This document shows, in pieces, positions 5,643 through 17,226 of a stretch of 20,773 bases of DNA. The stretch comes from a virus. The notes below the pieces were generated by a model. It saw nothing but the letters and a program-made list of their open reading frames with translations. It did not search any database and was not told the origin of the DNA. Both the position numbers and the translations under genes were made by a program. The stretch's first letter is position 1, and every line of letters begins with the position of its first letter. The stretch is from IMG/VR virus record IMGVR_UViG_3300025806_000280, positions 1-20,773 of that record. One strand, written 5' to 3'.

Positions 5643-5806
5643 TAATTTATAAAGAAGTTTTGAGCGTCCACTTCATCCTTTAGTTCTTGTTGATACGTTG
5701 TGTTTAATTTTTGTATTATACTATCAAGATCTCTTACTTGTGCGTCAGCAACATCTTGTTTGTATTCTTTACTAGGTCTTGTTAATATCTGTACTATCTT
5801 TGCCAT
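5642..5806 (-). CDS. Small conserved phage protein (54 aa)
   Basis: 54-residue frame from ATG at 5804-5806 to TAA at 5642-5644. It begins MAKIVQILTRPSKEY and ends in NTTYQQELKDEVDAQNFFIN. It is strongly charged and almost certainly one long helix (about residues 12-52), so a coiled coil or a partner-binding helix is likely. Both ends overlap neighbours by TAATG. A GGAAGAAG stretch just upstream could serve as a weak ribosome site. Coupled between the tail hub candidate and the beta protein, it could be a small tail assembly factor; this is inference. I recognise it as recurrent in marine phages but not as a named family. Confidence 0.75.
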   Translation of the reverse strand: MAKIVQILTRPSKEYKQDVADAQVRDLDSIIQKLNTTYQQELKDEVDAQNFFIN

Positions 5807-7941
5807 TATCTTCTTCCGTCTGGTTGTATATCTAACCTAAATCCACCAAGTTTCCAATTTTGAGATGCAGCTGTATTTGCTATTTTTAAAGATACAGCTC
5901 TAGCTCTGGCTCTAGTATCTACCTTTGTTGTTGAAGAACTTATTGTAAAAGGTCCAAGAGCAGAACTTGCTTGTGAGTCATTAGAGTAGTTTCTTAATTG
6001 TAATGTAATTTGTGTATTACCGGTTTGGGATACAAAGTCTGGTATAAATCTTCTAATCTTTGCAAAGAACTCACCATCTCCACCTTGACTAATATCAAAA
6101 TCTCCAGATTCAATGTTAGAAGTTATTGCTGTTGTAGCTGTAGTTGTAACTTGATCTGTGCCGGTTTCGTGCTCGTAGTATATTGTACAGCCATCGGTAT
6201 TACCAACAACATCATAGGAATTGTTAGAACCAGCATCATAATCTGTAGCATGAGGTTTACCAAATACAGCAGAGTCTTGCCAAGTTGTTCTATCCAATGT
6301 GCTTGTAGTCCAAACAGGTCTTTCACCTGAAGATTCAACATAATTAAAAGTTACACATCTATCAACTACTGTTGCACCAGAAGAACAATAGAACCAATTA
6401 ATTTCACCAAACAAATTATTTAATCCAGCATTAATAAGTTGGTTTGCTGTTGTGTTTAAATCATTAAATACAAAGTCTTCCACTAAACAAGGTAAAGATT
6501 GTAGAGCACCTGAGTATCTAAAAAAACCATTTTCTGAAAACCAATACGCAGCACCATCTACTTCTACTGCAGCGTTTTGACCAATCAAACCACAGTTAGT
6601 TCCTACTTGCGCAAAACCAAATGTAAAAGGTGGTCCAATAAATCTTTGCGTAAATAAAGCAGTGTCTGTCCAAACATAAATTGCATCACGACCTCTAACA
6701 GCTCCCATAATTCTAGATCCATCTGCAAGTCTCTGTGTACCAGCCGTGTTGGTTGCTGTAGGTGTGTATGAATTAATATTTTCTTGATCAGAAAATCTAA
6801 TAAACATTTCGTCTTGTGTAGAAGGTGAGCCAATCGTTGTTTCTGTACCAAAAAATACTAAGTGTCTATCCGGTGTAGATACAATCATATCTCTTGATGC
6901 TGTTGGTGCACCAGAAATAATTGTAGCTCTTGTTGCTGTTGCATTTGATGCATTTGAATTCCATTCAAAAACTGGGCCGTTGTGTATTAATGAAATAATT
7001 TTATCACCAAAGTTATCAATAGACCAAAGGCCTGGATCAATTACTAAGTCACCCGATGCAGCTTCACCCCATGCTACGAAGTCAGACGTATTTGTAATTG
7101 TTGCACCATTAGAATGCGATGCTGCTGTTGTGCCTCTCGCTGCTCGCGTCACGCCTGTTAATGTGTTGCCTGAGATTCCAGTGTAAGAAATATCTTCATT
7201 GTCTATTGAAATATGATTTGTACCTGTTGATGGAAAGTTAACTACGCTTGTTAAAACTATGGTTGTTGTAGACGCATCAATACCTCCGTTCAAAGTTGTT
7301 GTAAGTGCATTGGCCACTGTGCCACCAAAAGAAGCTAAACCCCAACCAAAACCCGGTAACTGTTCTGCTGGTCCAACTGCATAATATGTTTGAACTCTTA
7401 TACCACCAGATGCTGTAGCACCTGATCCTGTTTCTGCAGAAGGCATAGTAACTGTAATCGTTAAATTAGTTGGTGCTGAAGTTACCATAAATTTTTTATC
7501 ATCAAAATCTGACGCTGAGTAATTAGAATTTGTAATAGCTGTAAAAGTATCTAATAAAATTATGTCTCCAGGCGCAAGACTGTGACCAGATCCAAAAGTT
7601 ATAGTTACAGACGTAGATCCGTTTGTTGTGGTAAAAGCATTTGTAAGTGATGTTGTAGATTCAATAGGATGTATGTCATAAAACACACCTCCTGAGTAAG
7701 CATATAAAATTCTATTTGTACCTATAATTGAAAACTTTTGACCACCTCTATTTACAATATGGTGCATAGCTCTAGCAGAACCTGTTAATTTATTATTACC
7801 TAGTTGCTGCCAACCACCTATTTTTTCAGGTGTACCATATCTAAATCTTACATTATCACCATTAACCCATTGGCCTTCGGCTTGAGTATCTGTAATCTGT
7901 TTATTAAACCCTGGTAAGAACTGTACTTTTTGTAATGCCAT
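5806..7941 (-). CDS. Tail hub/nozzle candidate (711 aa), stabilisation-protein-like
   Basis: 711 residues, the largest complete gene here. The N-terminus (QFLPGFNKQITDTQAEGQW, then NVRFRYGTPEKIGGW) is a signature I associate with short-tail phage proteins comparable to the P22 gp10 stabilisation protein or the T7 nozzle. Repeated beta blades with Trp/Gly and Asp turns (about 60-90, 320-420, 440-640) fit a beta-propeller-like hub. Two beta inserts interrupt the N-terminal part, at about residues 96-190 and 213-286. The second (FPSTG, ISYTG, LTGVTRAARGTTAASH) is also present in the 18396-19193 product. The C-terminal 80 residues form a beta domain. No Shine-Dalgarno site is evident. The assignment to a tail hub is fairly likely; equating it to gp10 is tentative. 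Confidence 0.75.
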   Translation of the reverse strand: MALQKVQFLPGFNKQITDTQAEGQWVNGDNVRFRYGTPEKIGGWQQLGNNKLTGSARAMHHIVNRGGQKFSIIGTNRILYAYSGGVFYDIHPIESTTSLTNAFTTTNGSTSVTITFGSGHSLAPGDIILLDTFTAITNSNYSASDFDDKKFMVTSAPTNLTITVTMPSAETGSGATASGGIRVQTYYAVGPAEQLPGFGWGLASFGGTVANALTTTLNGGIDASTTTIVLTSVVNFPSTGTNHISIDNEDISYTGISGNTLTGVTRAARGTTAASHSNGATITNTSDFVAWGEAASGDLVIDPGLWSIDNFGDKIISLIHNGPVFEWNSNASNATATRATIISGAPTASRDMIVSTPDRHLVFFGTETTIGSPSTQDEMFIRFSDQENINSYTPTATNTAGTQRLADGSRIMGAVRGRDAIYVWTDTALFTQRFIGPPFTFGFAQVGTNCGLIGQNAAVEVDGAAYWFSENGFFRYSGALQSLPCLVEDFVFNDLNTTANQLINAGLNNLFGEINWFYCSSGATVVDRCVTFNYVESSGERPVWTTSTLDRTTWQDSAVFGKPHATDYDAGSNNSYDVVGNTDGCTIYYEHETGTDQVTTTATTAITSNIESGDFDISQGGDGEFFAKIRRFIPDFVSQTGNTQITLQLRNYSNDSQASSALGPFTISSSTTKVDTRARARAVSLKIANTAASQNWKLGGFRLDIQPDGRR

Positions 7942-7955
7942 AATATATGATTATA

Positions 7956-8291
7956 TCAGTTTTTGGCAATAAATATAGTCCATTCTAGATCGGAGATCAA
8001 ATCATTTACGTAGACTTTTGTATTTTTCTTTTTCTTAATATACTTGTGAAGTTCTTCCAAGTCCAAAATTAACCAATCTTTTTCGCGTTCAATAACCATT
8101 TTTTCAGCTCTAGTATCTATTCTACCTTTTTGAGCAGTTGTTCCATCAGATAATTTAAACATATTTCTTACGTCAAACCTATAAAAAGCATTTGTGCCTT
8201 TTATTATTCCTGCAATATTCCAAGATGTTTTTTCTTTTGGGTATCCAATAGATGTTAGATGTTTAGAAAATCTTTCTAATATATTACTCAT
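7956..8291 (-). CDS. Hypothetical marine-phage protein (111 aa)
   Basis: 111 residues, function unknown. Visible parts are an N-terminal helix (MSNILERFSKHLTSIGY), a middle WNIAGIIKGTNAFYRFDV, a charged GRIDTRAEKMVIEREKDW, then WLILDLEELHKYIKKKKNTK and a C-terminal DLISDLEW. No metal-binding histidine pair is visible, so it is not part of the oxygenase set although its base composition is similar. Its ATG overlaps the stop of the first oxygenase gene by four bases (ATGA), so it is the terminal member of the coupled run that begins near 13922. It may be a tail accessory protein bridging the oxygenase island and the hub gene. Confidence 0.7.
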   Translation of the reverse strand: MSNILERFSKHLTSIGYPKEKTSWNIAGIIKGTNAFYRFDVRNMFKLSDGTTAQKGRIDTRAEKMVIEREKDWLILDLEELHKYIKKKKNTKVYVNDLISDLEWTIFIAKN

Positions 8292-8875
8292 ACTATATCA
8301 AAGTTATAAGCCAAAGATATTCTTGTATTTTTTTCTTCACTTCTTTCAACACAATGAGGTAAGTCAGATTTAAATATTAAAAGTCTTCCAGGTACTGGAT
8401 CGTAATAAACTGTATTAGCTGTATCTCTAGTAAATGTTTCAGATGTTGGCTCATTTACAAAAGGATCAGGAGATACTTTAAATATAATCTTAGAGGATTT
8501 TTTAACATTACTTTTTAAGAAATAAACTGCCGAAAGAGAATGTGTGTTATGTGTATGATATTCTTGAAAATCATTTTTATGATATAAACTAATCCAACCA
8601 TTAACACATTTAAAATTGTTTTTATAATTTAGGTTATTTGAATATTCTTTTACTTGATTTAAGATCCAGTTATTTAAAGGTTTAAAATTATCGTCTAAAG
8701 AAATATCATAAGTATTTAAAGTATTATATGTTTTTTTAGATATCCAAGCTTTGCCACCAGATCTAATCTTCTTACTAACTTTAATGCATTCTTTAATTAA
8801 CTTATTTTGAATTTCTTTGTGTTCTGGATTATCAACATAACCTACAATTTTTGGCGACCACTTTTCAAATATCAT
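8288..8875 (-). CDS. 2OG-Fe(II) oxygenase, HxH type (195 aa)
   Basis: Predicted non-haem iron dioxygenase using 2-oxoglutarate and O2, probably hydroxylating an unknown substrate. The triad is seen as H107-T-H109 in YHTHNTHSLSAVYFLK, H174 in FKSDLPHCV, and R185 in RISLAYNF as the likely 2-oxoglutarate anchor. The PGRLLIFKS-x-LPH pattern is that of the TIGR02466/PF13759 group (usual length near 200), where the first motif is HxH rather than HxD. The N-terminal 90 residues are helical. It has no Shine-Dalgarno site, and its ATG overlaps the preceding stop by four bases. Substrate unknown; the family identification is strong. Confidence 0.88.
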   Translation of the reverse strand: MIFEKWSPKIVGYVDNPEHKEIQNKLIKECIKVSKKIRSGGKAWISKKTYNTLNTYDISLDDNFKPLNNWILNQVKEYSNNLNYKNNFKCVNGWISLYHKNDFQEYHTHNTHSLSAVYFLKSNVKKSSKIIFKVSPDPFVNEPTSETFTRDTANTVYYDPVPGRLLIFKSDLPHCVERSEEKNTRISLAYNFDIV

Positions 8876-9330
8876 AATTTATTATACCAAGCAACTATTA
8901 CATATCTTTTTCCTTTTAATAACTCAGTTACCATATGTTTTTTTTCTGAATAAAATTTTACTATTTTTCCTATTTCTGGTTCTATAGTTTTATTTTCAAC
9001 AATAGTTCTACCACCTTCGTAATTTTTATTTAGATATGTTATTGTAGTAATATCATAATTGAACTGATCATCTTTATATCCATTATCTATATGCCAATCA
9101 TGTAATTCACCTATTGGCCAAAAAACAATTTCAATATTTTTTATATAATAATCTTTAAAAAGTAATTGATATTTTTTTAATAATTTTTTAATCTTTAAAT
9201 CATTTATATTTTTTAATTTTAAAATATGTCTTTTAGAATGTATTTCAGTTTTATTAAAATTATTATTAATAGTATCAATACAATATTTACAAATGTCTTT
9301 ACTTAAAAAGTTTTTATTTTCTTCTATCAT
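8872..9330 (-). CDS. 2OG-Fe(II) oxygenase, HxD prolyl-4-hydroxylase-like (152 aa)
   Basis: Compact member, 152 residues, close to a bare catalytic core. The triad is H80-I-D82 (in HDWHIDNG), H132 (KKHMV) and R142 (KRYVIVAWY). The glycine pair after YLNKNYEGG (about 105-107), followed by TIEPEIGKIVKFYSEKKH, is the classical prolyl-hydroxylase/PKHD core: strand, GG, turn, G-x-hydrophobic, H. No signal peptide. Gene is extremely AT-rich, with Ile/Asn/Lys codons dominating. It is coupled by ATGA to both neighbours, and the nearest GGAG upstream is about 15 bases from the ATG, too far to be a normal ribosome site. Substrate unknown. Confidence 0.88.
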   Translation of the reverse strand: MIEENKNFLSKDICKYCIDTINNNFNKTEIHSKRHILKLKNINDLKIKKLLKKYQLLFKDYYIKNIEIVFWPIGELHDWHIDNGYKDDQFNYDITTITYLNKNYEGGRTIVENKTIEPEIGKIVKFYSEKKHMVTELLKGKRYVIVAWYNKL

Positions 9331-9971
9331 TTTAAATGTAAATACGCTCCACTATCTTTCTGATAGATATCTCCTATAGGATATAAATTAAACGCAATAG
9401 ATTTTCTCATTATATGAGATTCATTTTTTAAAACTTTATGATGCATTTCACTAGGAAAAATTATAAGTAACCCATCGACAGGTTTAAATCTCCAAGAACG
9501 AGAATTATAAATATTGAATTCTTTTTTATCTAAAAGGTATCTAATATCCGTATAATCTTGAAATGCTATATCACCTGAATTTTCGTCTACATGTAAATAT
9601 AAAATACCACTGAACATAGAATTTGCATGAGCGTGAAAATTTGTTTCTGCTCCTGGTTCAGAAACTACTGACCAAGATGTGGAGAAATCAAACTTCTGTT
9701 CATATTTCAAAACTTCTTTTGTAAATATATAAAATTCTTCTAATATTTTATTTTTTAAAAATTTAAGTTTAGGTTTTTTTAGTAGCTGTTTTTCTTTTGA
9801 AGTTAAGGAAGGTTTTTTTATATCGTAAGCATAATCTTTTTTGTGCCCAGAGTTAATCCAATTTGTATCACAGATTTTATCTACGGCCGAAATGCTTTTC
9901 TTTAAATCAAGTTCTATTACTTTTGTATAAAATACTTTTGAAAAAAGAGGATAAATGTTTCCTTGGTTCAT
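9327..9971 (-). CDS. 2OG-Fe(II) oxygenase, HxH type (214 aa)
   Basis: Resembles the TIGR02466/PF13759 group. The triad is H113-A-H115 within FHAHANSMFSGILYLH, H177 or H178 in FPSEMHHKV, and R189 before SIAFNLYP. The HAHxNSxxSG-x-LYL signature is textbook for this group. The N-terminal 90 residues hold a conserved-looking start IYPLFSKVFYTKVIE, where phage and bacterial relatives also begin with a short FP-type strand. It differs clearly from the 8288 and 11093 products, so these three are diverged relatives rather than fresh copies. ATGA overlap at each end; no ribosome site. Substrate unknown. Confidence 0.88.
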   Translation of the reverse strand: MNQGNIYPLFSKVFYTKVIELDLKKSISAVDKICDTNWINSGHKKDYAYDIKKPSLTSKEKQLLKKPKLKFLKNKILEEFYIFTKEVLKYEQKFDFSTSWSVVSEPGAETNFHAHANSMFSGILYLHVDENSGDIAFQDYTDIRYLLDKKEFNIYNSRSWRFKPVDGLLIIFPSEMHHKVLKNESHIMRKSIAFNLYPIGDIYQKDSGAYLHLK

Positions 9972-10618
9972 TTTTTAAATACATTATTTTGACCTAACAT
10001 ATGTTTTTTCAAATCTGGTCTAGTGTAACCTTCTGGTAATCCTGGGAAACCTCTTTCATCAAATTCTAAATGTTTATTATTAGGGTTTGTATAATGTAAA
10101 AAAACTTGCACACAAAAGTCTTGCTGTAATTCATCTCTCCAATGTTCTAATTCACAGCCTTTATAAATAGCAAGATCACCTTCATTTAAAATAACCTTTT
10201 TTATTTTTTGTTCTTTATCTTTAAAATATATAGGCCATTTGGAGCCATATAAATTTAATGTAGCAGAAACTTCACAAGACTCTCTATCTTTATGTTTCTT
10301 TAAAACATCTCCTTTTTTGTAAATTCTTACATAAGAATAAGTTGGTAGTAATTTTTTATTTGTTTTTTTTTCAATAAGAGGATGTAAATTTAATAATAAA
10401 GTTTCAGCAAAAATATCTGAATAACAAGAATAAGACAAAGGAGCTTGAGGATCAGTCCAAACACCCCAAGTTTTTTCATATGAAGGAATAAATCCATCTT
10501 GAAAAAGTTTAGCAGCTACATGTTGTTTTAAAAAAATATAATCGGTGAACATAGAAGCTATATTTTTATCTACAGCTTTTTTAACAACTTTATATTTCAT
10601 ATCATCAAATTTTTTCAT
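9968..10618 (-). CDS. 2OG-Fe(II) oxygenase, T4-like cyanophage type (216 aa)
   Basis: The pattern PTYSYVRIYKKGDVLKKH followed by KDRESCEVSATLNL is a hallmark of an oxygenase group common in marine T4-like phages. Metal ligands are H109-K-D111 and H159 (in GCELEHWRD). The 2-oxoglutarate contact is less obvious: R161 directly follows, or a polar residue in QVFLHY (171-176) may serve. Residues 36-70 (FIPSYEKTWGVWTDPQ) form the typical substrate-side lid region of these proteins. The C-terminal 40 residues (FDERGFPGLPEGY) extend beyond the core and are Pro/Gly-rich. Its start overlaps the upstream stop by one base (TAATG). Substrate unknown. Confidence 0.87.
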   Translation of the reverse strand: MKKFDDMKYKVVKKAVDKNIASMFTDYIFLKQHVAAKLFQDGFIPSYEKTWGVWTDPQAPLSYSCYSDIFAETLLLNLHPLIEKKTNKKLLPTYSYVRIYKKGDVLKKHKDRESCEVSATLNLYGSKWPIYFKDKEQKIKKVILNEGDLAIYKGCELEHWRDELQQDFCVQVFLHYTNPNNKHLEFDERGFPGLPEGYTRPDLKKHMLGQNNVFKK

Positions 10619-11100
10619 TAGAAATAATTAAAATTAATGTTTACTCTTATTTTTTCATCAGAGCAATAAGTAGATGCGTGTTCTAATTTAGAATTAAAAA
10701 TTAATAATCTATTGGCCTTGCTCTCTACTGTTTTACCATTTTTAAAAACGGTAGGCCCATTATTATCATTTAAATAAAACAATGCATTCTTATGTTCGTA
10801 TTCAAAATCTTTATGAAAATTGTTTTGCACTTTCTTTCCTAAGTTTGGATATAAATTTCCTTTCACTCGTACTATAGCATTTGGTTTTAAAATATCAAGT
10901 ATAGGATGTATTAAATTAAAATATTGACTATTTGAAGTATGGTTTTCATAAAATAAATGAGTAAAGTAAAATAACTTATCTTTTTGAGTTTCCGCAGTAA
11001 CTGTTGATGAATAGAACCAAGGAAAATGTTTACTCATCATTAATAATTGTAAATCTTTAAAAGATTCTTTTTCTATTGCGTTGTCTATTATTTTAAACAT
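10618..11100 (-). CDS. 2OG-Fe(II) oxygenase, HxD type (160 aa)
   Basis: 160 residues of a type I recognise from cyanophages: FPWFYSSTVT (26-35), YFTHLFY (45-51), RVKGNLYPN (78-86), then the core. Ligands are H96-K-D98 (NNFHKDFEYE), H141 (KLEHAS) and R152 (EKIRVNINFNYF). The pattern LFYLNDNNGPTVFKNGKTV and NRLLIFNSKLEH fits the double-stranded beta-helix with a short metal loop. The close match of the whole length to the phage type argues it is functional. It overlaps the upstream gene by eight bases with only a weak GGAA before the ATG. Substrate unknown. Confidence 0.88.
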   Translation of the reverse strand: MFKIIDNAIEKESFKDLQLLMMSKHFPWFYSSTVTAETQKDKLFYFTHLFYENHTSNSQYFNLIHPILDILKPNAIVRVKGNLYPNLGKKVQNNFHKDFEYEHKNALFYLNDNNGPTVFKNGKTVESKANRLLIFNSKLEHASTYCSDEKIRVNINFNYF

Positions 11101-11731
11101 ATTGTATATTCCAATGTATAAATCTAAATGGTTCTAAACCTGGGTCTACTGTAAATTCGTGATTAAAATATCCAGGAAAAATAATCATATCTCCTGGTTT
11201 TATTTTATAGTGTACAGATTCTGATCCTGATGAAATTTTATTTTTATCCAGTAAAGGTAGTTTAGTCATTACGGCTCCAGGTCTTGGATCGTAAAAACGA
11301 GGAAAAGAAGTAAGCTCTGAACATTTTAAAAAATAAAAACCAGATACATGTTGATTCCAATGAGAATGTGCTGAATGATGTCCTCCTCCTAATTTTGAAA
11401 ACTCTTGTACCCATAACTCATTTAAACTTATCTTTTTGTGTTGTATATCAAAACCGCAATCATTAATAAAATGATTACTATGATCAACAATTTTATCAAT
11501 AAAAAATTTAAAATTATTATCCAAAATTAAAGAAGTCGAATGGTAACTTGAACCAAAAGAGTTTTTTAATTTTTTAGGAATCGTCTTATCTAATTTTATT
11601 CTTTCTTTATCTCTTTTAATAGAATCTTTAATATAAGGATCTGTTAATTGATTTAACTGATTAACATGTTGAAGAATATTTACTTTAAACACTGGAGTAC
11701 TAAATAATTCATCTTTAAATATTTTTTGCAT
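11093..11731 (-). CDS. 2OG-Fe(II) oxygenase, HxH type (212 aa)
   Basis: TIGR02466/PF13759-like. Ligands are H122-S-H124 (in AHSHWNQHVSGFYFLK), H191 (PGYFNHEFTV) and R203 (PFRFIHWN). The run GGGHHSAHSH (115-124) is unusually histidine-rich. A DPRPGAV motif (148-154) and KPGDMIIFPGYFNH (178-191) complete the core. The start is well supported, being the only island gene with a clear ribosome site (GGAGATAAA directly before ATG). It may therefore be an internal ribosome entry point restarting translation for the downstream six genes. Substrate unknown. Confidence 0.88.
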   Translation of the reverse strand: MQKIFKDELFSTPVFKVNILQHVNQLNQLTDPYIKDSIKRDKERIKLDKTIPKKLKNSFGSSYHSTSLILDNNFKFFIDKIVDHSNHFINDCGFDIQHKKISLNELWVQEFSKLGGGHHSAHSHWNQHVSGFYFLKCSELTSFPRFYDPRPGAVMTKLPLLDKNKISSGSESVHYKIKPGDMIIFPGYFNHEFTVDPGLEPFRFIHWNIQYV

Positions 11732-11732
11732 T

Positions 11733-12305
11733 TTATCTCCAATTAGGTCCTGTTAACCACACAACTAAACTGTAACGTATTCCTTTTTTTACAGGAGCTA
11801 CTTTATGACATTGAAAAGACGGAAAAACTAAACAAGAACCTTTTTCACTAATTTCTTTCATTTCATATATTCTATCTTTTTTTGGTTTATCATGGAATTT
11901 AAATAAAAATTCACCTCCAGTGTAATCAGAAGGATTAGACAAATTTAAAGAAAAAGATAATTTTCTATTTCTATTTGATTTAAAACTATCGCGGTGAAAG
12001 TCATAAAATTGTTTTTTTGTATACATAGTAAATTGAGCTTTTAAATCTAAATTTAAATCTAACTCAAAGTTCCAGTTTGCTTTTTGATTAGCATTATGCA
12101 TTAACTCTTTTATAGGTTCTAGTATGTTTTTATCCTGTAACCAAACTATTGTTGATTCTCTAACTTTTTTATCGTAAACAGGTCGACCGTCTTGACCTAT
12201 CATTCCTTGTATTTTTTGTTGTGATAAACCTTTTTCAATAACATAATCACAGAACTGCTCTGTAAATAATTTTCTATAATAATAATAATCGTTATTCGTA
12301 AACAT
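11733..12305 (-). CDS. PKHD-type 2OG-Fe(II) hydroxylase (190 aa)
   Basis: The most classical member. Ligands are H104-R-D106 (YDFHRDSF), H167 (FPSFQCHKVAPV) and R177 (KKGIRYSLVVWLTGP). The GG at 130-131 (YTGGEFLFKF) and the strand SFSLNLSNP match PKHD-type hydroxylases closely. In bacteria such enzymes act on protein side chains or small molecules; the phage substrate is unknown. Residues 30-60 (GQDGRPVYDKKVREST, VWLQDK) correspond to the usual N-terminal RxS...W element. It is separated from the next gene by one base and starts at a TAATG overlap. Prolyl or similar hydroxylation of a protein is the best guess. Confidence 0.9.
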   Translation of the reverse strand: MFTNNDYYYYRKLFTEQFCDYVIEKGLSQQKIQGMIGQDGRPVYDKKVRESTIVWLQDKNILEPIKELMHNANQKANWNFELDLNLDLKAQFTMYTKKQFYDFHRDSFKSNRNRKLSFSLNLSNPSDYTGGEFLFKFHDKPKKDRIYEMKEISEKGSCLVFPSFQCHKVAPVKKGIRYSLVVWLTGPNWR

Positions 12306-12844
12306 TATATTTCAAAATAGTTATTAACTAAATAAAATCCATTTAATTTAGAAATATTTTTAGTTATCTCAAAATTTAAATGAGAAGGAAACATTACAAA
12401 GCAATTATTTTTTAAAGGATATCTTGCATGTAAGTTAACTCTTTTTTTATTGTTGTGGTAAATAATTACTTCTGAACTTTTGTTTTCTAATTCAACACCA
12501 TAGATCATAGTATAAACTGGAGATCCTTCAATATCATAAGGATTAAAATAATTATTTTTTTGAATATTGTCATCTTGTTTTAAGATAAAACTAAAACTTT
12601 CTTTTAACACTAAAGATGATTTACCTTTTTGCTGAAGTTTGAAAAAATCACTAATATAAGAATTTAAAAAAGATAAATGAATTGTATGATTTAATGGCTG
12701 TACTGGTGTTTTTTTATTTTTACTTTTTTCTAAATAGCCATACATCATGGCATATTTTATTTGTTCTCTATGTATTTCATATCCTTTAGGACAGTTTACA
12801 CCACCGTAATAAACAGCTTCTTCATTGAGTATTTCTTTATACAT
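12305..12844 (-). CDS. Degenerate 2OG oxygenase-like protein lacking the metal triad (179 aa)
   Basis: Same size and position as its neighbours, and the C-terminal part follows the beta-helix pattern (PVYTMIYGVELENKSS, NNCFVMFPSHLNFEI, NGFYLVNNYFEI). The catalytic residues are absent. Where HxH is expected the sequence reads N-P-Y (101-103), the distal His of FPSxLxH is Phe158, and no Arg lies in the last strand. The frame is intact with no stop, so it is kept as a protein. It may be a non-catalytic partner, a binding jelly-roll, or a decaying paralogue. Alternatively it may be a different protein that only resembles the fold. Start and stop are coupled to both neighbours. Confidence 0.72.
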   Translation of the reverse strand: MYKEILNEEAVYYGGVNCPKGYEIHREQIKYAMMYGYLEKSKNKKTPVQPLNHTIHLSFLNSYISDFFKLQQKGKSSLVLKESFSFILKQDDNIQKNNYFNPYDIEGSPVYTMIYGVELENKSSEVIIYHNNKKRVNLHARYPLKNNCFVMFPSHLNFEITKNISKLNGFYLVNNYFEI

Positions 12845-12845
12845 T

Positions 12846-13514
12846 TCAATATCTTATACACTCAGACGCGTGAAATTTCAATGGTTGATTATCCACTCTT
12901 TTAACAAATTCAAAAAAAGTAACCAAAGTTAGACGTTCTTTATTATCGTTTCCATAATTATCAACTCCATGATATTGAGAACCATCAAATAATATCATCC
13001 TGTTTTTTTTAGCTTTTAACTCTAATACTTTTTCATAGCTATTATGATTTTCTTTAATTGCTTTCTTAAATTCTTTTGTTCTTTTTTTATTAGGATTTAA
13101 ATAATTTTCTTTTTGTGTTTCTTTATAAAAATTATTTTTCACAGGATCTTTTAATTGATATATGCAAGTTCCATTATTATCTTCATCACTTAAATAAACA
13201 ACAGAAGTAAACTCATGACTTAAGTCTTGATGAATAAATCCTTTTTCAGGATACTCAGATGGTTTTATTTTTTGAAAATACTGTGTAGCTTGCCATTCTA
13301 AACAAGAATCTTTATTAACATCATTAGGGTATAAAGCAGCTATAATTTTTTCAGTAGTTTTTTGAAAAAAATTTGGATCAAATTGATGTGTGCTTATAGT
13401 TCTGGTTCCAGGCCAAGTTCCTTTACCAGGTAAAAATTTTAAAGATTTAGAATACTCTATAACTGAGTTTGGGTTAACAAAAAATTTATCAATGGTTAGC
13501 GTTGGCCAAATCAA
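12846..13514 (-). CDS. DUF6445-like 2OG-Fe(II) oxygenase-fold protein (222 aa)
   Basis: The start of the protein (TIDKFFVNPNSVIEYSKSL, then TWPGTRT at 33-39) is the signature of the DUF6445 group: a D-x-F/Y-x-N-P element followed by a PG-R motif. Ligands are H95-Q-D97 (GFIHQDLSH), H182 (GSQYHGV) and R194 (ERLTLVTFFEF). A lysine-rich insert at about 125-165 stretches the metal-side loop compared with neighbours. First gene of the island; a GGAG lies about 18 bases from the ATG, so the real initiation signal is unclear. Three bases separate it from the upstream stop. Function unknown; an oxygenase is likely. Confidence 0.85.
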   Translation of the reverse strand: MIWPTLTIDKFFVNPNSVIEYSKSLKFLPGKGTWPGTRTISTHQFDPNFFQKTTEKIIAALYPNDVNKDSCLEWQATQYFQKIKPSEYPEKGFIHQDLSHEFTSVVYLSDEDNNGTCIYQLKDPVKNNFYKETQKENYLNPNKKRTKEFKKAIKENHNSYEKVLELKAKKNRMILFDGSQYHGVDNYGNDNKERLTLVTFFEFVKRVDNQPLKFHASECIRY

Positions 13515-13517
13515 AAA

Positions 13518-13922
13518 TTATATTGCGCTCCACCCTTGTGTATTGTCAACTTGATATGCTGATTCATCCCATCTGTATGCTGTATAAGTTTCATCATCTG
13601 ATGGATATGGTACTGGGGACTCATATTTTCCAGTAGTATTATTCATAGTCCAGCTTGGAAAAGGTTGTACACTATCTTTAAAAATATCTAGTTCAGGGTC
13701 GTACTTTAATCCTGGTCCTGCGAAATTAGCTCTGTAAGGTGTACCACCTAATAAATGAACTCCTTTAGAAGTATTAAAAGAAGTTTTTTTCCATAAAGGC
13801 CAATTGTGATGTTTAGTTAGATAAGCAACACCTGTTGCTTCATCATCATTAGAAATATCGTCTTGTAATGGAGTTACCCATAAAACATTATTATCTGAAT
13901 CTAATTTTGCAAAATGTGCCAT
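13518..13922 (-). CDS. Conserved marine-phage tail-associated protein (MAHFAKL family, 134 aa)
   Basis: 134 residues. The pattern MAHFAKLDSDNNVLWV, HHNWPLWKKTSFNT, GGTPYRANFAGPGLKYD, QPFPSWTMN and YRWDESAYQV is one I recognise from many T4-like cyanophage and pelagiphage genomes, usually near fibre genes and without a proven role. Tryptophan and proline are frequent, and the fold is probably mixed beta. It overlaps the upstream stop by TAATG and has no Shine-Dalgarno site, so its level should follow the poly-glycine gene. It could be a fibre tip cap, a chaperone or an oxygenase target; none of these is shown. Confidence 0.82.
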   Translation of the reverse strand: MAHFAKLDSDNNVLWVTPLQDDISNDDEATGVAYLTKHHNWPLWKKTSFNTSKGVHLLGGTPYRANFAGPGLKYDPELDIFKDSVQPFPSWTMNNTTGKYESPVPYPSDDETYTAYRWDESAYQVDNTQGWSAI

Positions 13923-14863
13923 TATGCTATGTACGTCCCTGGTGAATTAAATACGTGAATAGTGTCATCTCCAGAAGTTGAAGTGCATCCACCTGATCCA
14001 TTTGAATCTGCTGTTACTCTTCTGATTACAACTTTTCCAGAACCACCTGCTCCAGCATTTGGAGCACCACTTCCGCCAGCAGCTCCGCCGCCACCGCCTT
14101 GGTTTGTTCCTCCAGCTTGTCCTACAGCTCTTTGTCCTGCAGCTCCGCCGCCAGAACCTCCTGGACTTCCTATTGGATTTCCTTGAACAGAATCTCCGCC
14201 TCCTGCACCGCCTCCTGAAAAAGCTAAAGGTGAACCTGTTATAGTACTTGTTGTTCCTGATCCTCCTGGTCCACCTGATCCTGGGGGTGAGTTTGCATTA
14301 GTTCCAACACTGCCAGCTCCGCCGCCACCGCCTCCAGTTTGGTTGTTAAAAGTTGAGTGAGGATTAGTTCCTCCGTTATTTCCTTGTGAAGGTGATGTTG
14401 GAGGTGAGTTACCTGCACCACCATCTAAAACATCTGCTGGTTGTGATCCTCCTGCTGGACTTGGATTTTGATATCGTCCAACTCCTCCTCCTGATCCACC
14501 ATCCTGTGCTTTAAATGGTGAAGCACAAGCTGGTCCGGCACTGCCAGGACCTCCATTGCCTCCTGATCCGCCTCCTGCTGATGTAATAGTATCAAAAGTT
14601 GAGGGATTACCGTTATTGTTTGCTGAGTTAATTGTACAAGCAGGGCCTGCCATTGGTGTTGCGCCTGCACCTACTGTAATTGCGTATGATGTACCGCCAA
14701 CAACTTCATAAGTTTTACAAGCTATTGTACGAAAGCCTCCGCCCCCACCTCCGCCGCCTTGGGAGTGTCCACCGGATCCTCCGCCAGCTACGACTAAATA
14801 TCTTACGTTATAAGGTGATCCTCCACCTCCAGCTCCGAAACCTAATACTTGATATCCAAACAT
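13922..14863 (-). CDS. Poly-glycine tail tip/adhesin-like protein (Gly_rich_2 type, 313 aa)
   Basis: 313 residues. Starts with a short beta hairpin (YNVRYLVVAGGGSGG) followed by long runs of Gly, Ser and Asn with up to eight Gly in succession (about 36-43). Pro is interspersed as GPG, SPP and PSP. The final part returns to beta (KVVIRRVTA) and a DTIHVFNSPGTYI ending. The YLVVAGGGSGG plus YxITVGAG pattern belongs to the glycine-rich (Gly_rich_2/PF21722-type) group of phage tail proteins, which may pack as poly-glycine helices at tail tips. AGGAG lies 8 bases before the ATG. It is GC-rich for this genome because of its Gly codons. It is a plausible receptor-binding protein and a plausible oxygenase substrate (many Pro), but neither is proven. 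Confidence 0.85.
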   Translation of the reverse strand: MFGYQVLGFGAGGGGSPYNVRYLVVAGGGSGGHSQGGGGGGGGFRTIACKTYEVVGGTSYAITVGAGATPMAGPACTINSANNNGNPSTFDTITSAGGGSGGNGGPGSAGPACASPFKAQDGGSGGGVGRYQNPSPAGGSQPADVLDGGAGNSPPTSPSQGNNGGTNPHSTFNNQTGGGGGGAGSVGTNANSPPGSGGPGGSGTTSTITGSPLAFSGGGAGGGDSVQGNPIGSPGGSGGGAAGQRAVGQAGGTNQGGGGGAAGGSGAPNAGAGGSGKVVIRRVTADSNGSGGCTSTSGDDTIHVFNSPGTYIA

Positions 14864-14875
14864 ATTTTATTCTCC

Positions 14876-16093
14876 TTACGCGTCGTTAGCCGCATCTGTA
14901 GTGAAGAATAATTTAATACCTAATACTCTTGCATCAGCACTAAAAGTATCTCCGCCTGCATTTGCATCTCTAAATAATTGAAAGTAAGTTAATTGATCTA
15001 CTGCAGGTGATCCTGCAATTGTAACTGCTGAACTTTCAGCAGAAACTTGTTGATCTTCTACTGTTCCTATACCAGCATCTGTAACATTAATTGCTGTTCC
15101 ATAAGCAATATCAATAGTATCACTATCACCACAAGAAACTCCTTGTAATCCAAAAATACAGTCTCCTGTATTAGTAGAACCCGGTGTCCAGTAAACTTGA
15201 TAAGTTACTGTGCCTTCATTCCATGATTTAGGAAAAGCCACTGAAAATTGTGCAAACTCATCTGTACTTGCATCAAAATCTAATACTTTCATATCAGGTC
15301 TTGTTGCTGTTGTTTCAACTTGTTCTGCTGCTGCTGGGTTAGTTGTAGCTCCATACATAGCTGCTGCTGGAACCCACATAGTTTCTTTACCTGCAATGTT
15401 TACTGCAGCTGTACCTGATTTAAGAACGCCTGTTCCTTTAGGATTTAAATTTAAATCAACGTTTGTTTCACCTGTTGAAGAAATAATTGGACCGTTTCCA
15501 GTTGCAGCATTTGCTAATGTAATTTCATTAACAGCTGAACTTGTTGCCGTTAATAAAGCTAATTCATTTCCGTTAGTATCTAAAATTGAAGTTCCAATTT
15601 TAGGTGCTGTTAAAGTTTTATTTGTTAAAGTCTGTGTTCCAGCAGTAGTAACATTACCATTTGGTAAAGTGTAAATGTCTGGATTAGTTCCATCGTTTGC
15701 AGTTGCAAATACAACAGCATCACCTTTGTCAGTTGCTGAGAAAGTAAATGAATCTCCTGATCCAGATGTATATTTAAATTGTACTGTGTATGCACCTGAT
15801 GTTGAATTTCTTAAATAATAAAAAGTTTGAACATCTAATGGAATAGTTACGATTTGGTTTCCTGTAATTGAACCTGTGAATTCAATCATTCTATGAGATA
15901 GAACTGCTCCAGTTGATCCATCAGATACAGATAAAGCTGTAGTCTGTGCACCGCCTGCTATTGATTGAGCAGAAAATCCACCAACGATTTGTTCAAAAAT
16001 TTGTAAATTTGTATTAGTTTTCGTTCCCCATGTTCCAGCGTTTTCGCCAGTTGCTTGAAGTTCTACCCCTAAAGGTGTGTATGTTGAAGCCAT
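14876..16093 (-). CDS. Tail fibre protein (MASTYTPLGVEL type, 405 aa)
   Basis: 405 residues. The first 40 residues (STYTPLGVELQATGENAGTW, TNTNLQIFEQIVGG) are the attachment region of a fibre type common in pelagiphages and cyanophages. Next comes a beta part (about 60-140). The central TLTNKTLTAPKIG element (about 155-167) and the VNEITLANAATGNGPIISST, NPKGTGVLK repeat unit (about 188-227) follow, and are typical of trimeric fibre shafts. The C-terminal 170 residues (WVPAAAMYG, SWNEGTVTYQVYWTPG, VDQLTYFQLFRDA) form a distal domain, perhaps a carbohydrate-binding or trimerisation domain. AGGAG plus ATAAAAA directly before ATG is a strong ribosome site. The role is host attachment by family resemblance. 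Confidence 0.88.
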   Translation of the reverse strand: MASTYTPLGVELQATGENAGTWGTKTNTNLQIFEQIVGGFSAQSIAGGAQTTALSVSDGSTGAVLSHRMIEFTGSITGNQIVTIPLDVQTFYYLRNSTSGAYTVQFKYTSGSGDSFTFSATDKGDAVVFATANDGTNPDIYTLPNGNVTTAGTQTLTNKTLTAPKIGTSILDTNGNELALLTATSSAVNEITLANAATGNGPIISSTGETNVDLNLNPKGTGVLKSGTAAVNIAGKETMWVPAAAMYGATTNPAAAEQVETTATRPDMKVLDFDASTDEFAQFSVAFPKSWNEGTVTYQVYWTPGSTNTGDCIFGLQGVSCGDSDTIDIAYGTAINVTDAGIGTVEDQQVSAESSAVTIAGSPAVDQLTYFQLFRDANAGGDTFSADARVLGIKLFFTTDAANDA

Positions 16094-16119
16094 TTTTTAT
16101 CTCCTAATTTTGCTTATAC

Positions 16120-17226
16120 TTAAGCAACATCTGTATAGCTCGTATTAGAACCTGTGTCAACACTTTGATATGCTTGAATTCCAAAGCCTGAAGCGGTTCC
16201 AAAAGCTGCTACATTTGACGTTGCTAATTGTCCTGTTAACGTTAAATCTAAACTTGTAACAATAGTTGTTGACCCTACATTAAACGTTGCAGACAATCCA
16301 GTCAAGCCCATAACGTCAGCAGGTGCTAAAGAACCTGCATTAGAAGTCATTGATATTCCAGTTGGTGTTACTATAGGATTTGAATTTTCATCCGTTCCAC
16401 CTAAAGAAACAGTCGCAGAAAGACCAGTTAAACCTACTACATCTGCAGGACTTAATGATCCAACAGAAGAAGTTGCAGATTGACCTGTAGGTAACATTAC
16501 ATCAGCTGCATCCGGAGATCCAAGTGAAATAGTTGCAGAAATTCCTGTTAGTCCTATTACATCTGCAGGAGCTATTGATCCAACAGAAGAAGTTGTAGAA
16601 ATTCCTGTTAAGCCCATTACATCCGCAGGAGCTATTGATCCAACAGAAGAAGTAGCTGATATACCTGTTAATTCTGCTGATACATCATTTGCTTGTCCCC
16701 AAGCTTCTTCACCCCAACCATCATGACCCCAACCAATTTCATTGTAAGCTTCTAATGTTCCGAGAGATGTAGTTAATTCAAATCCTGAAAGATCTACTCT
16801 GGTATCACCAACTTGTCCCCATTCACCTTCATCCCAAAATCTACCACCCCAACCTTTTTCGTTAAAAGATTCTACGCTTCCAACAGAAGACGTCATTGAT
16901 AAACCTGTTAAAGTAAATACCGGGTTGTTACTGTCTCCCCAAGCTTCTGAGTTCCAAGTATTTCTACCCCAACCATTTGTTGTATAAGATAATAATCCAT
17001 CTGCGTTTACTGAAACAGTTGCAGATACACCAGTTAATTCTACAGTGTTGTCATTTACTGCGCCCCACTCACCAACACTCCAACCTGTTCCACCCCAACC
17101 TGTTAAGTTGAACGCAGTTAAGTCTCCTGTAGTTGAAGTAGCTGAAACACCACCAACTTCTATTGTTACAGTTGTTGATTGCCAGGAGTTATCTCCCCAA
17201 GAATTTGTTCCCCAGGTAGAAGCCAT
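16120..17226 (-). CDS. Trp-rich nested-repeat structural protein (368 aa)
   Basis: 368 residues made of repeats. Five 40-42-residue modules (1-204) each have a GWG-xx-W-xxx-WG head followed by an LTGxSATSSVGS tail. Six to seven 20-residue units (205-347) then keep only the second half, LTGxSATSSVGS-x-APADV. So the short repeat is half of the long module, and the protein probably grew by internal duplication. The ending (YQSVDTGSNTSYTDV) is unlike the repeats. A stack of beta units with exposed Trp suits a fibre or spike protein binding sugars or another virion protein. AAGGAGG lies 8 bases before ATG. I recognise such proteins from marine phages without a proven role. Confidence 0.8.
   Translation of the reverse strand: MASTWGTNSWGDNSWQSTTVTIEVGGVSATSTTGDLTAFNLTGWGGTGWSVGEWGAVNDNTVELTGVSATVSVNADGLLSYTTNGWGRNTWNSEAWGDSNNPVFTLTGLSMTSSVGSVESFNEKGWGGRFWDEGEWGQVGDTRVDLSGFELTTSLGTLEAYNEIGWGHDGWGEEAWGQANDVSAELTGISATSSVGSIAPADVMGLTGISTTSSVGSIAPADVIGLTGISATISLGSPDAADVMLPTGQSATSSVGSLSPADVVGLTGLSATVSLGGTDENSNPIVTPTGISMTSNAGSLAPADVMGLTGLSATFNVGSTTIVTSLDLTLTGQLATSNVAAFGTASGFGIQAYQSVDTGSNTSYTDVA
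16246..16677 (-). repeat. Tandem 60-base coding repeats
   Basis: Seven units of about 60-66 bases encode the 20-residue repeats. Two neighbouring units share 29 identical bases exactly 60 apart (16565-16593 and 16625-16653, core GCAGGAGCTATTGATCC). Such near-identical tandem copies allow slippage or recombination that changes repeat number. Confidence 0.75.

Follow-up and report, generated by a model that had tools for sequence, protein, structure and literature searches.

What would bring nine genes of a single oxygenase fold together between the fibre genes and the tail hub of a phage? The question is raised by a 20.8-kb virus record, IMGVR_UViG_3300025806_000280 (20,773 nucleotides; hereafter the window, meaning the whole stretch of DNA analysed), in which every gene of substance lies on the minus strand and nine oxygenase-fold open reading frames (ORFs), ox1 to ox9, occupy positions 8288-13514. 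Neighbouring ORFs of this island overlap by 1-8 nt or are separated by gaps of a few nucleotides, and the nine genes are translationally coupled. All nine products belong to the 2-oxoglutarate (2OG)-Fe(II) oxygenase fold group, characterized by the double-stranded beta-helix (DSBH), and no other scanned protein of the window matched an oxygenase family in Pfam or PHROG. We infer that the island is a tail-locus tailoring cassette that would chemically modify fibre-tip proteins of an HTVC023P-type pelagiphage. Computation shows the fold, the triads, the gene order, the selection, the co-membership, and the link to the tip; the substrate, timing, and benefit are inferred. Tip tailoring is the most economical reading, although we put its chances somewhat below even.

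Six members (ox1, ox3, ox4, ox7, ox8, and ox9) exceeded the curated Pfam cut-off, with matches to DUF6445 (ox1), 2OG-FeII_Oxy_3 (ox3 and ox8), and 2OG-FeII_Oxy_5 (ox4, ox7, and ox9). Weak matches were obtained for ox5 (E about 0.001) and ox6 (E 0.014, to the AlkB-like Oxy_2), and ox2 had no Pfam match; the DSBH fold is supported for ox5 by hhalign and for ox6 and ox2, the two hardest members, by AlphaFold models and Foldseek searches. An HxD triad is present in ox1, ox3, ox5, ox6, and ox8 and an HxH...H triad in ox4, ox7, and ox9, and all three metal ligands were retained in 681 of 689 homologues of these eight proteins. The HxH members may handle iron differently. Seven members (ox1, ox3, ox4, ox5, ox7, ox8, and ox9) carry an arginine 10-12 residues past the distal histidine, where a basic residue is expected to bind 2OG; ox6 has no basic residue there, and its alignments contain invariant R98 and R161 instead. 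The initial annotation of a nine-gene oxygenase island with five HxD members, three HxH members, and one degenerate member was thus confirmed in its ORFs, families, and triads, and the predicted fold was confirmed for the weakest members. Its description of eight consecutive catalytic genes was correct in number but not in arrangement, since ox2, which has the fold but not the metal triad, sits second in the row.

Several members can be placed by their closest families and solved relatives. The ox1 product (12846-13514; H95-D97-H182, R194) is a DUF6445-type DSBH oxygenase (PF20043, E 8e-14; 2OG-FeII_Oxy_3, E 3e-4) with the triad kept in 7 of 7 homologues and a ratio of nonsynonymous to synonymous substitution rates (dN/dS) of 0.22-0.24. 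The label of phrog_1644, which has ox1 as its window member, is "minor coat protein", and this member is of the DUF6445/2OG type with an intact HxD...H motif. ox3 (11733-12305; H104-D106-H167, R177; Pfam E 5e-15) is a PKHD- and prolyl 4-hydroxylase (P4H)-like protein with PDB profile matches to both kinds of enzyme; scoring 52 bits against a cut-off of 143 for the NCBIfam PKHD equivalog, it is by sequence a relative of the PKHD-type hydroxylase and not an equivalog. The small P4H/PHD-like ox8 (8872-9330; H80-D82-H132, R142; Pfam E 6e-12), which bears the PHROG name "DNA endonuclease", matched prolyl 4-hydroxylases in the PDB (E 8e-11). Protein prolyl hydroxylases are thus among the nearest solved relatives of ox3 and ox8, and also of ox6. 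The HxH-type proteins ox4 (11093-11731; H122-H124-H191, R203; triad in 131 of 131 homologues; PDB matches 3bvc and 2rg4), ox7 (9327-9971; H113-H115-H178, R189; Pfam E 3e-18), and ox9 (8288-8875; H107-H109-H174, R185; Pfam E 2e-15) resemble TIGR02466/PF13759, a family of unproven function, and have HxH in place of the usual HxD/E. Against the TIGR02466 cut-off of 62.5 bits, ox7 scored 63.2 and ox9 65.7, and ox4 fell just below. PDB profile searches with the ox1, ox2, ox5, and ox6 alignments returned nothing useful.

The degenerate member, ox2 (12305-12844), gave an AlphaFold (AF2) model with a DSBH fold and a predicted local distance difference test score (pLDDT) of 84.8. Its best Foldseek matches were 3bvc and 2rg4, which the ox4 and ox7 profiles also found, together with TlxI and PHD2. 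Aligned with a PF13759-type profile by hhalign (85.7%), the HxH and distal histidine positions are replaced. Relatives of ox2 are encoded on at least 568 IMG/VR stretches, in a search that used a closer subset of the ox2 alignment, and dN/dS of 0.32-0.35 indicates purifying selection; these two findings rule out a decaying pseudogene. The gene directly follows phrog_7759 in 80 of 89 cases and directly precedes ox3 in 73 of 89. On the modelled fold, ox2 looks like a conserved pseudo-oxygenase heading the array, apparently a new kind of member, and it would probably serve as a partner or scaffold of its usual neighbour ox3. The heterodimeric 2OG oxygenases TlxI/TlxJ offer a parallel, as TlxI (7vbr) and TlxIJ (7vbq) are among the best ox2 fold matches; these are natural-product enzymes, however, and the ox2-ox3 pairing is an analogy only.

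Two further members carry names that do not fit their folds. ox6 (9968-10618; H109-D111-H159) belongs to phrog_2954, to which 156 phage records matched, many of these marine records bearing the name "ferrochelatase"; two papers treat the family as such (PMC9599517, PMC11561400), and the latter reports phrog_61 and phrog_2954 as enriched in seasonal viruses. The ox6 AF2 model (pLDDT 84.5) is a double-stranded beta-helix, and its 50 best Foldseek matches in the PDB are all DSBH/2OG-oxygenase-type structures, led by the Pseudomonas prolyl hydroxylase PPHD, which was solved with EF-Tu (4iw3, E 1.4e-9). The HxD...H triad is kept in 151 of 152 homologues, and no ferrochelatase Pfam match was found for ox6 or phrog_2954 proteins at E values up to 1. 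A true ferrochelatase is ruled out by these fold matches and the missing chelatase family match, and the phrog_2954 "ferrochelatase" looks, on the structural model, like an oxygenase-fold protein, apparently a new identification.

The second misnamed member, ox5 (10618-11100; H96-D98-H141, R152), is a DSBH-type protein of phrog_274 (E 5e-48; T4-GC_100), the cyanophage "endonuclease V" family, which 264 records matched (e.g., L167:12001-12510 and L169:11517-12513). Its profile aligned with ox8 at 97.5% probability (hhalign, E 7e-12) across the HxD motif and the distal histidine, and the phrog_274 copies of cyanophage S-MbCM7 matched 2OG-Fe(II) Pfam models. Neither ox5 nor the cyanophage "DenV" copies matched the endonuclease V (Pyr_excise) Pfam family, and the P-SSM4 DenV had no PDB match. 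The 2OG family and profile matches and the missing Pyr_excise match rule out a true T4-type DenV; on profiles and motif, ox5 and the cyanophage "endonuclease V" look like oxygenase-fold proteins, which is apparently new. The literature is divided on this gene, as PMC3037559 lists cyanophage denV and PMC2984593 states that cyanophages are without it.

The island occupies one fixed slot, with a glycine-rich tip and the phrog_7759 protein on one side and the tail hub on the other. In the window, these flanks are the glycine-rich fibre-tip protein (13922-14863, minus strand; PF21722 Gly_rich_2, E 1e-10; phrog_2295), a candidate substrate; the Trp/Pro-rich fibre-locus protein of phrog_7759 (13518-13922, minus strand; E 3e-28), a candidate partner or substrate; and the tail-hub/stabilization protein that closes the slot (5806-7941, minus strand; phrog_3287, E 4e-109; "stabilization protein" in DSL-LC04). 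An assembly artefact is ruled out by two loci. L258, from another metagenome, matches the window at 99.6% over 7.0 kb with all nine genes intact. L178 (71% nucleotide identity) has the same nine-gene layout: phrog_7759, ox1-ox7, a second ox7-type gene at the ox8 position that is not orthologous to ox8, ox9, g111, and the hub. A third locus, L259, has an extra ox7-type gene followed by ox1-ox7 in window order. The 59 islands compared contain from 3 to 10 oxygenase genes each (median 5), and the order ox2-ox3-ox4-ox6 is kept in 39 of 41 islands holding all four; true orthologues have dN/dS values of 0.13-0.43, indicating purifying selection on each. Slot content is therefore swappable and order largely conserved, and the expected recurrence of the run beside fibre genes in related phages was found. 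The run had also been called unusual; it is large, but it recurs widely (~60 islands), cyanophage S-RSM4 has seven such genes, and a published precedent exists (PMC9599517), so the window lies toward the upper end of a continuum of island sizes and is not unique. At locus L273, phrog_7759 is followed by ~11 oxygenase-type genes, possibly the largest array seen.

The remaining ORFs found in the slot are tryptophan halogenases, NodU/TobZ-type O-carbamoyltransferases, and methyltransferases, present in 7, 2, and 3 of 61 islands, respectively. None of these enzymes was found elsewhere on the same island contigs, and over all fetched loci an oxygenase gene is found no more than 100 bp away from 20 of their 24 copies; their presence in the same slot looks new. 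Similar modules occur in other phage lineages. Cyanophage S-RSM4 (~90.6-95.6 kb) carries a tail fibre, a glycine-rich tip-like protein, phrog_7759, and its seven oxygenase-type genes (two of which bear the name endonuclease), although it is a T4-like myovirus with another member order, and ox2 and ox6 were not detected there. The T4-like cyanophage P-RSM4 has a carbamoyltransferase, an oxygenase, a "ferrochelatase", phrog_7759, and a further oxygenase run. In pelagimyophage HTVC008M, four 2OG oxygenases and a "ferrochelatase" adjoin phrog_7759 and a glycine-rich protein, and a separate halogenase-oxygenase pair is also present; this phage differs in being a myovirus, in having the cassette on the strand opposite the structural operon, and in that no pseudo-oxygenase was detected.

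The island also changes with the tip. Between the window and its relatives, identity is 73-97% for the hub and 53-84% for the shaft, but mostly 24-50% for orthologues of the tip, phrog_7759, and the island. For ox3 and ox6, distances track phrog_7759, not the hub or shaft, and the pooled Mantel test of island against phrog_7759 gave r of 0.76-0.86, a figure partly inflated by the way the loci were collected. By subset, the partial correlation of ox6 with phrog_7759 was 0.18 (p 0.16), 0.32 (p 0.014), and 0.67 (p 0.001), the last in the ox4-collected subset, even though ox6 usually lies nearer the hub. This tie to the tip over the hub, and the presence of a tip-phrog_7759-oxygenase module in T4-like cyanophages and in a pelagimyophage as well, look new.

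In the proposed mechanism, the enzymes would hydroxylate side chains of the glycine-rich adhesin and/or the phrog_7759 protein during virion assembly, and in some phages carbamoylation, methylation, or halogenation would follow. Hydroxylation would create acceptor hydroxyls usable by carbamoyltransferases, and the aromatic rings that halogenases need could be supplied by phrog_7759, which has a conserved Trp-rich and Pro-rich sequence. A tip of altered chemistry could then differ in resistance or in its fit to the receptor, and exchange of the tip would carry the cassette along. More tentatively, we suggest as one joint claim that marine phages, podo- and myoviruses alike, share an exchangeable cassette that modifies receptor-binding tips post-translationally in natural-product style, its possible components being hydroxylases, a pseudo-oxygenase scaffold, a halogenase, an O-carbamoyltransferase, and a methyltransferase. 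The initial annotation had suggested action on virion parts, and this is supported indirectly by the fixed tip-side slot, the other virion lineages, the tip co-variation, and the halogenase and carbamoyltransferase co-members. Several points weigh against tip modification. None of these enzymes has a known activity or substrate, no modified virion peptide is known, and our literature search on fibre hydroxylation in phages found no relevant paper. phrog_7759 adjoins fibre genes in many phages, and in Bellamy, Melnitz, Greip, HTVC025P, CRP-207, and phiPsal1 it stands at fibre/tail loci where the surrounding 4-5 kb contain no annotated oxygenase; it thus does not require the oxygenases, which weakens its candidacy as an obligate substrate. 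In some cyanophages (P-SSM4), the copies are solitary genes lying a few kilobases away from the fibres. In the least biased subset, collected by hub search, the ox6 co-variation has the same sign but is weak (r about 0.17-0.18, p 0.16), and physical linkage, which by itself would keep island and tip together, is a partial explanation of the pattern.

The main rival is that the enzymes modify host envelope glycans or lipids, changing the receptor, excluding other phages, or aiding release, with the proximity of island and tip explained simply by their host specificity and joint exchange. NodU/TobZ-kind carbamoyltransferases act on sugar hydroxyls, and their presence in two islands suits this explanation, as do the glycosyltransferases that HTVC023P and HTVC027P encode a few genes downstream of the hub; co-variation of tip and island would be predicted equally. 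However, tryptophan halogenases, the commonest non-oxygenase members, act on aromatic rings, several members have protein hydroxylases as their closest structures, and the genes are placed within or next to operons for virion structure and not in an early region. We consider host modification unlikely, if a serious contender. Ranking next, and similarly doubtful, is a tolerant insertion hot-spot, a place where insertion is harmless and where auxiliary oxygenases would have collected one by one, their targets being as unrelated as translation factors, the balance of iron or 2OG, and DNA repair. The variable gene number and content, the inversion of some islands, the roles in DNA repair or 2OG/nitrogen metabolism proposed earlier (PMC2984593, PMC3037559), and the prolyl hydroxylase solved with EF-Tu would all agree with such a hot-spot, but the nearly constant core order, the repeated filling of the slot by the same fold, the tailoring nature of all co-members, and the presence of this module next to the tip in three groups of phages would not.

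Modification of DNA or nucleotides to hide phage DNA from host nucleases appears improbable. Phage TET/JBP-like 2OG enzymes modify DNA and provide a precedent, ox6 has its weak AlkB-family match, and separate DNA hypermodification genes are reported in this phage group (PMC9599517); yet no TET/JBP or strong AlkB match was found, the genes lie in a tail operon, a halogenase and a carbamoyltransferase fit nucleic acid poorly, and in structure ox6 comes closest to prolyl hydroxylases. The published heme/iron pairing of oxygenases with a true ferrochelatase, which follows PHROG and GenBank names and their usage in PMC9599517 and PMC11561400, is the least credible of all and very improbable given the fold, the triad, and the missing family match of ox6.

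By sequence comparison, the window belongs to an HTVC023P-type pelagiphage. Its hub protein is 44-49% identical to those of Pelagibacter phages HTVC023P and HTVC027P and phage 023Pt_psg01, whose homologous, syntenic tail genes agree with the window order of head-tail/adaptor genes, fibre genes, glycine-rich tip, phrog_7759 protein, oxygenase island, and hub. A possible host is SAR11, the most abundant bacterial group of the ocean: HTCC1062 is the host of its cultured relatives, and ~60-kb contigs of HTVC023P type in two Pelagibacteraceae single-cell assemblies (L265 and L268) are direct host hints for this phage type. Phage-type islands also occur on L264, L266, L269, L271, L272, and L273, filed under Flavobacteriaceae and Maricaulis metagenome-assembled genomes; these look like phage contigs inside bacterial bins. 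The G+C content of the island (0.24-0.27) is below that of nearly all the remaining window (0.29-0.48), and promoter and terminator scans gave results near chance. Upstream of the tip lie two fibre/shaft-like proteins of 405 and 368 aa (14876-17226, minus strand). The former matches phrog_31104; the latter (16120-17226) is repetitive, with LTGxSxTSSVGS-like units and no family, and at 33-52% identity in relatives it is the most variable upstream gene apart from the tip and the island. Between the island and the hub, g111 (7956-8291, minus strand) encodes a 111-aa product without a family match or assigned function; it is found in only a subset of islands (L003, L005, L020, L046, L178, and L259), usually adjoining the hub gene and sometimes inside the array, and is 71-72% identical in the close relatives that have it.

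The presence of several 2OG oxygenases in such phages has been noticed before. Up to five 2OG-Fe(II) genes per cyanophage were tabulated in PMC3037559, and eight non-orthologous ones were described in HTVC023P-type phages, the same phage group, often beside a ferrochelatase (PMC9599517, mSystems 2022). That study differs in that the oxygenases were described as nearby but not adjacent and the ferrochelatase was taken as real, whereas the window genes are contiguous. What is added here is the contiguity, the order, the slot, the corrected identities, the pseudo-oxygenase, the non-oxygenase members, and the shared tip module. Two widely used names are removed, that of the "ferrochelatase", an ecological marker in PMC11561400, and that of the cyanophage "endonuclease V". 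Few "auxiliary metabolic genes" of marine phages are as common as those for 2OG oxygenases, which have no known substrate; one tip-linked cassette would give them a concrete, testable target. If the tip is indeed the substrate, both its sequence and its chemistry would determine host range in these phages.

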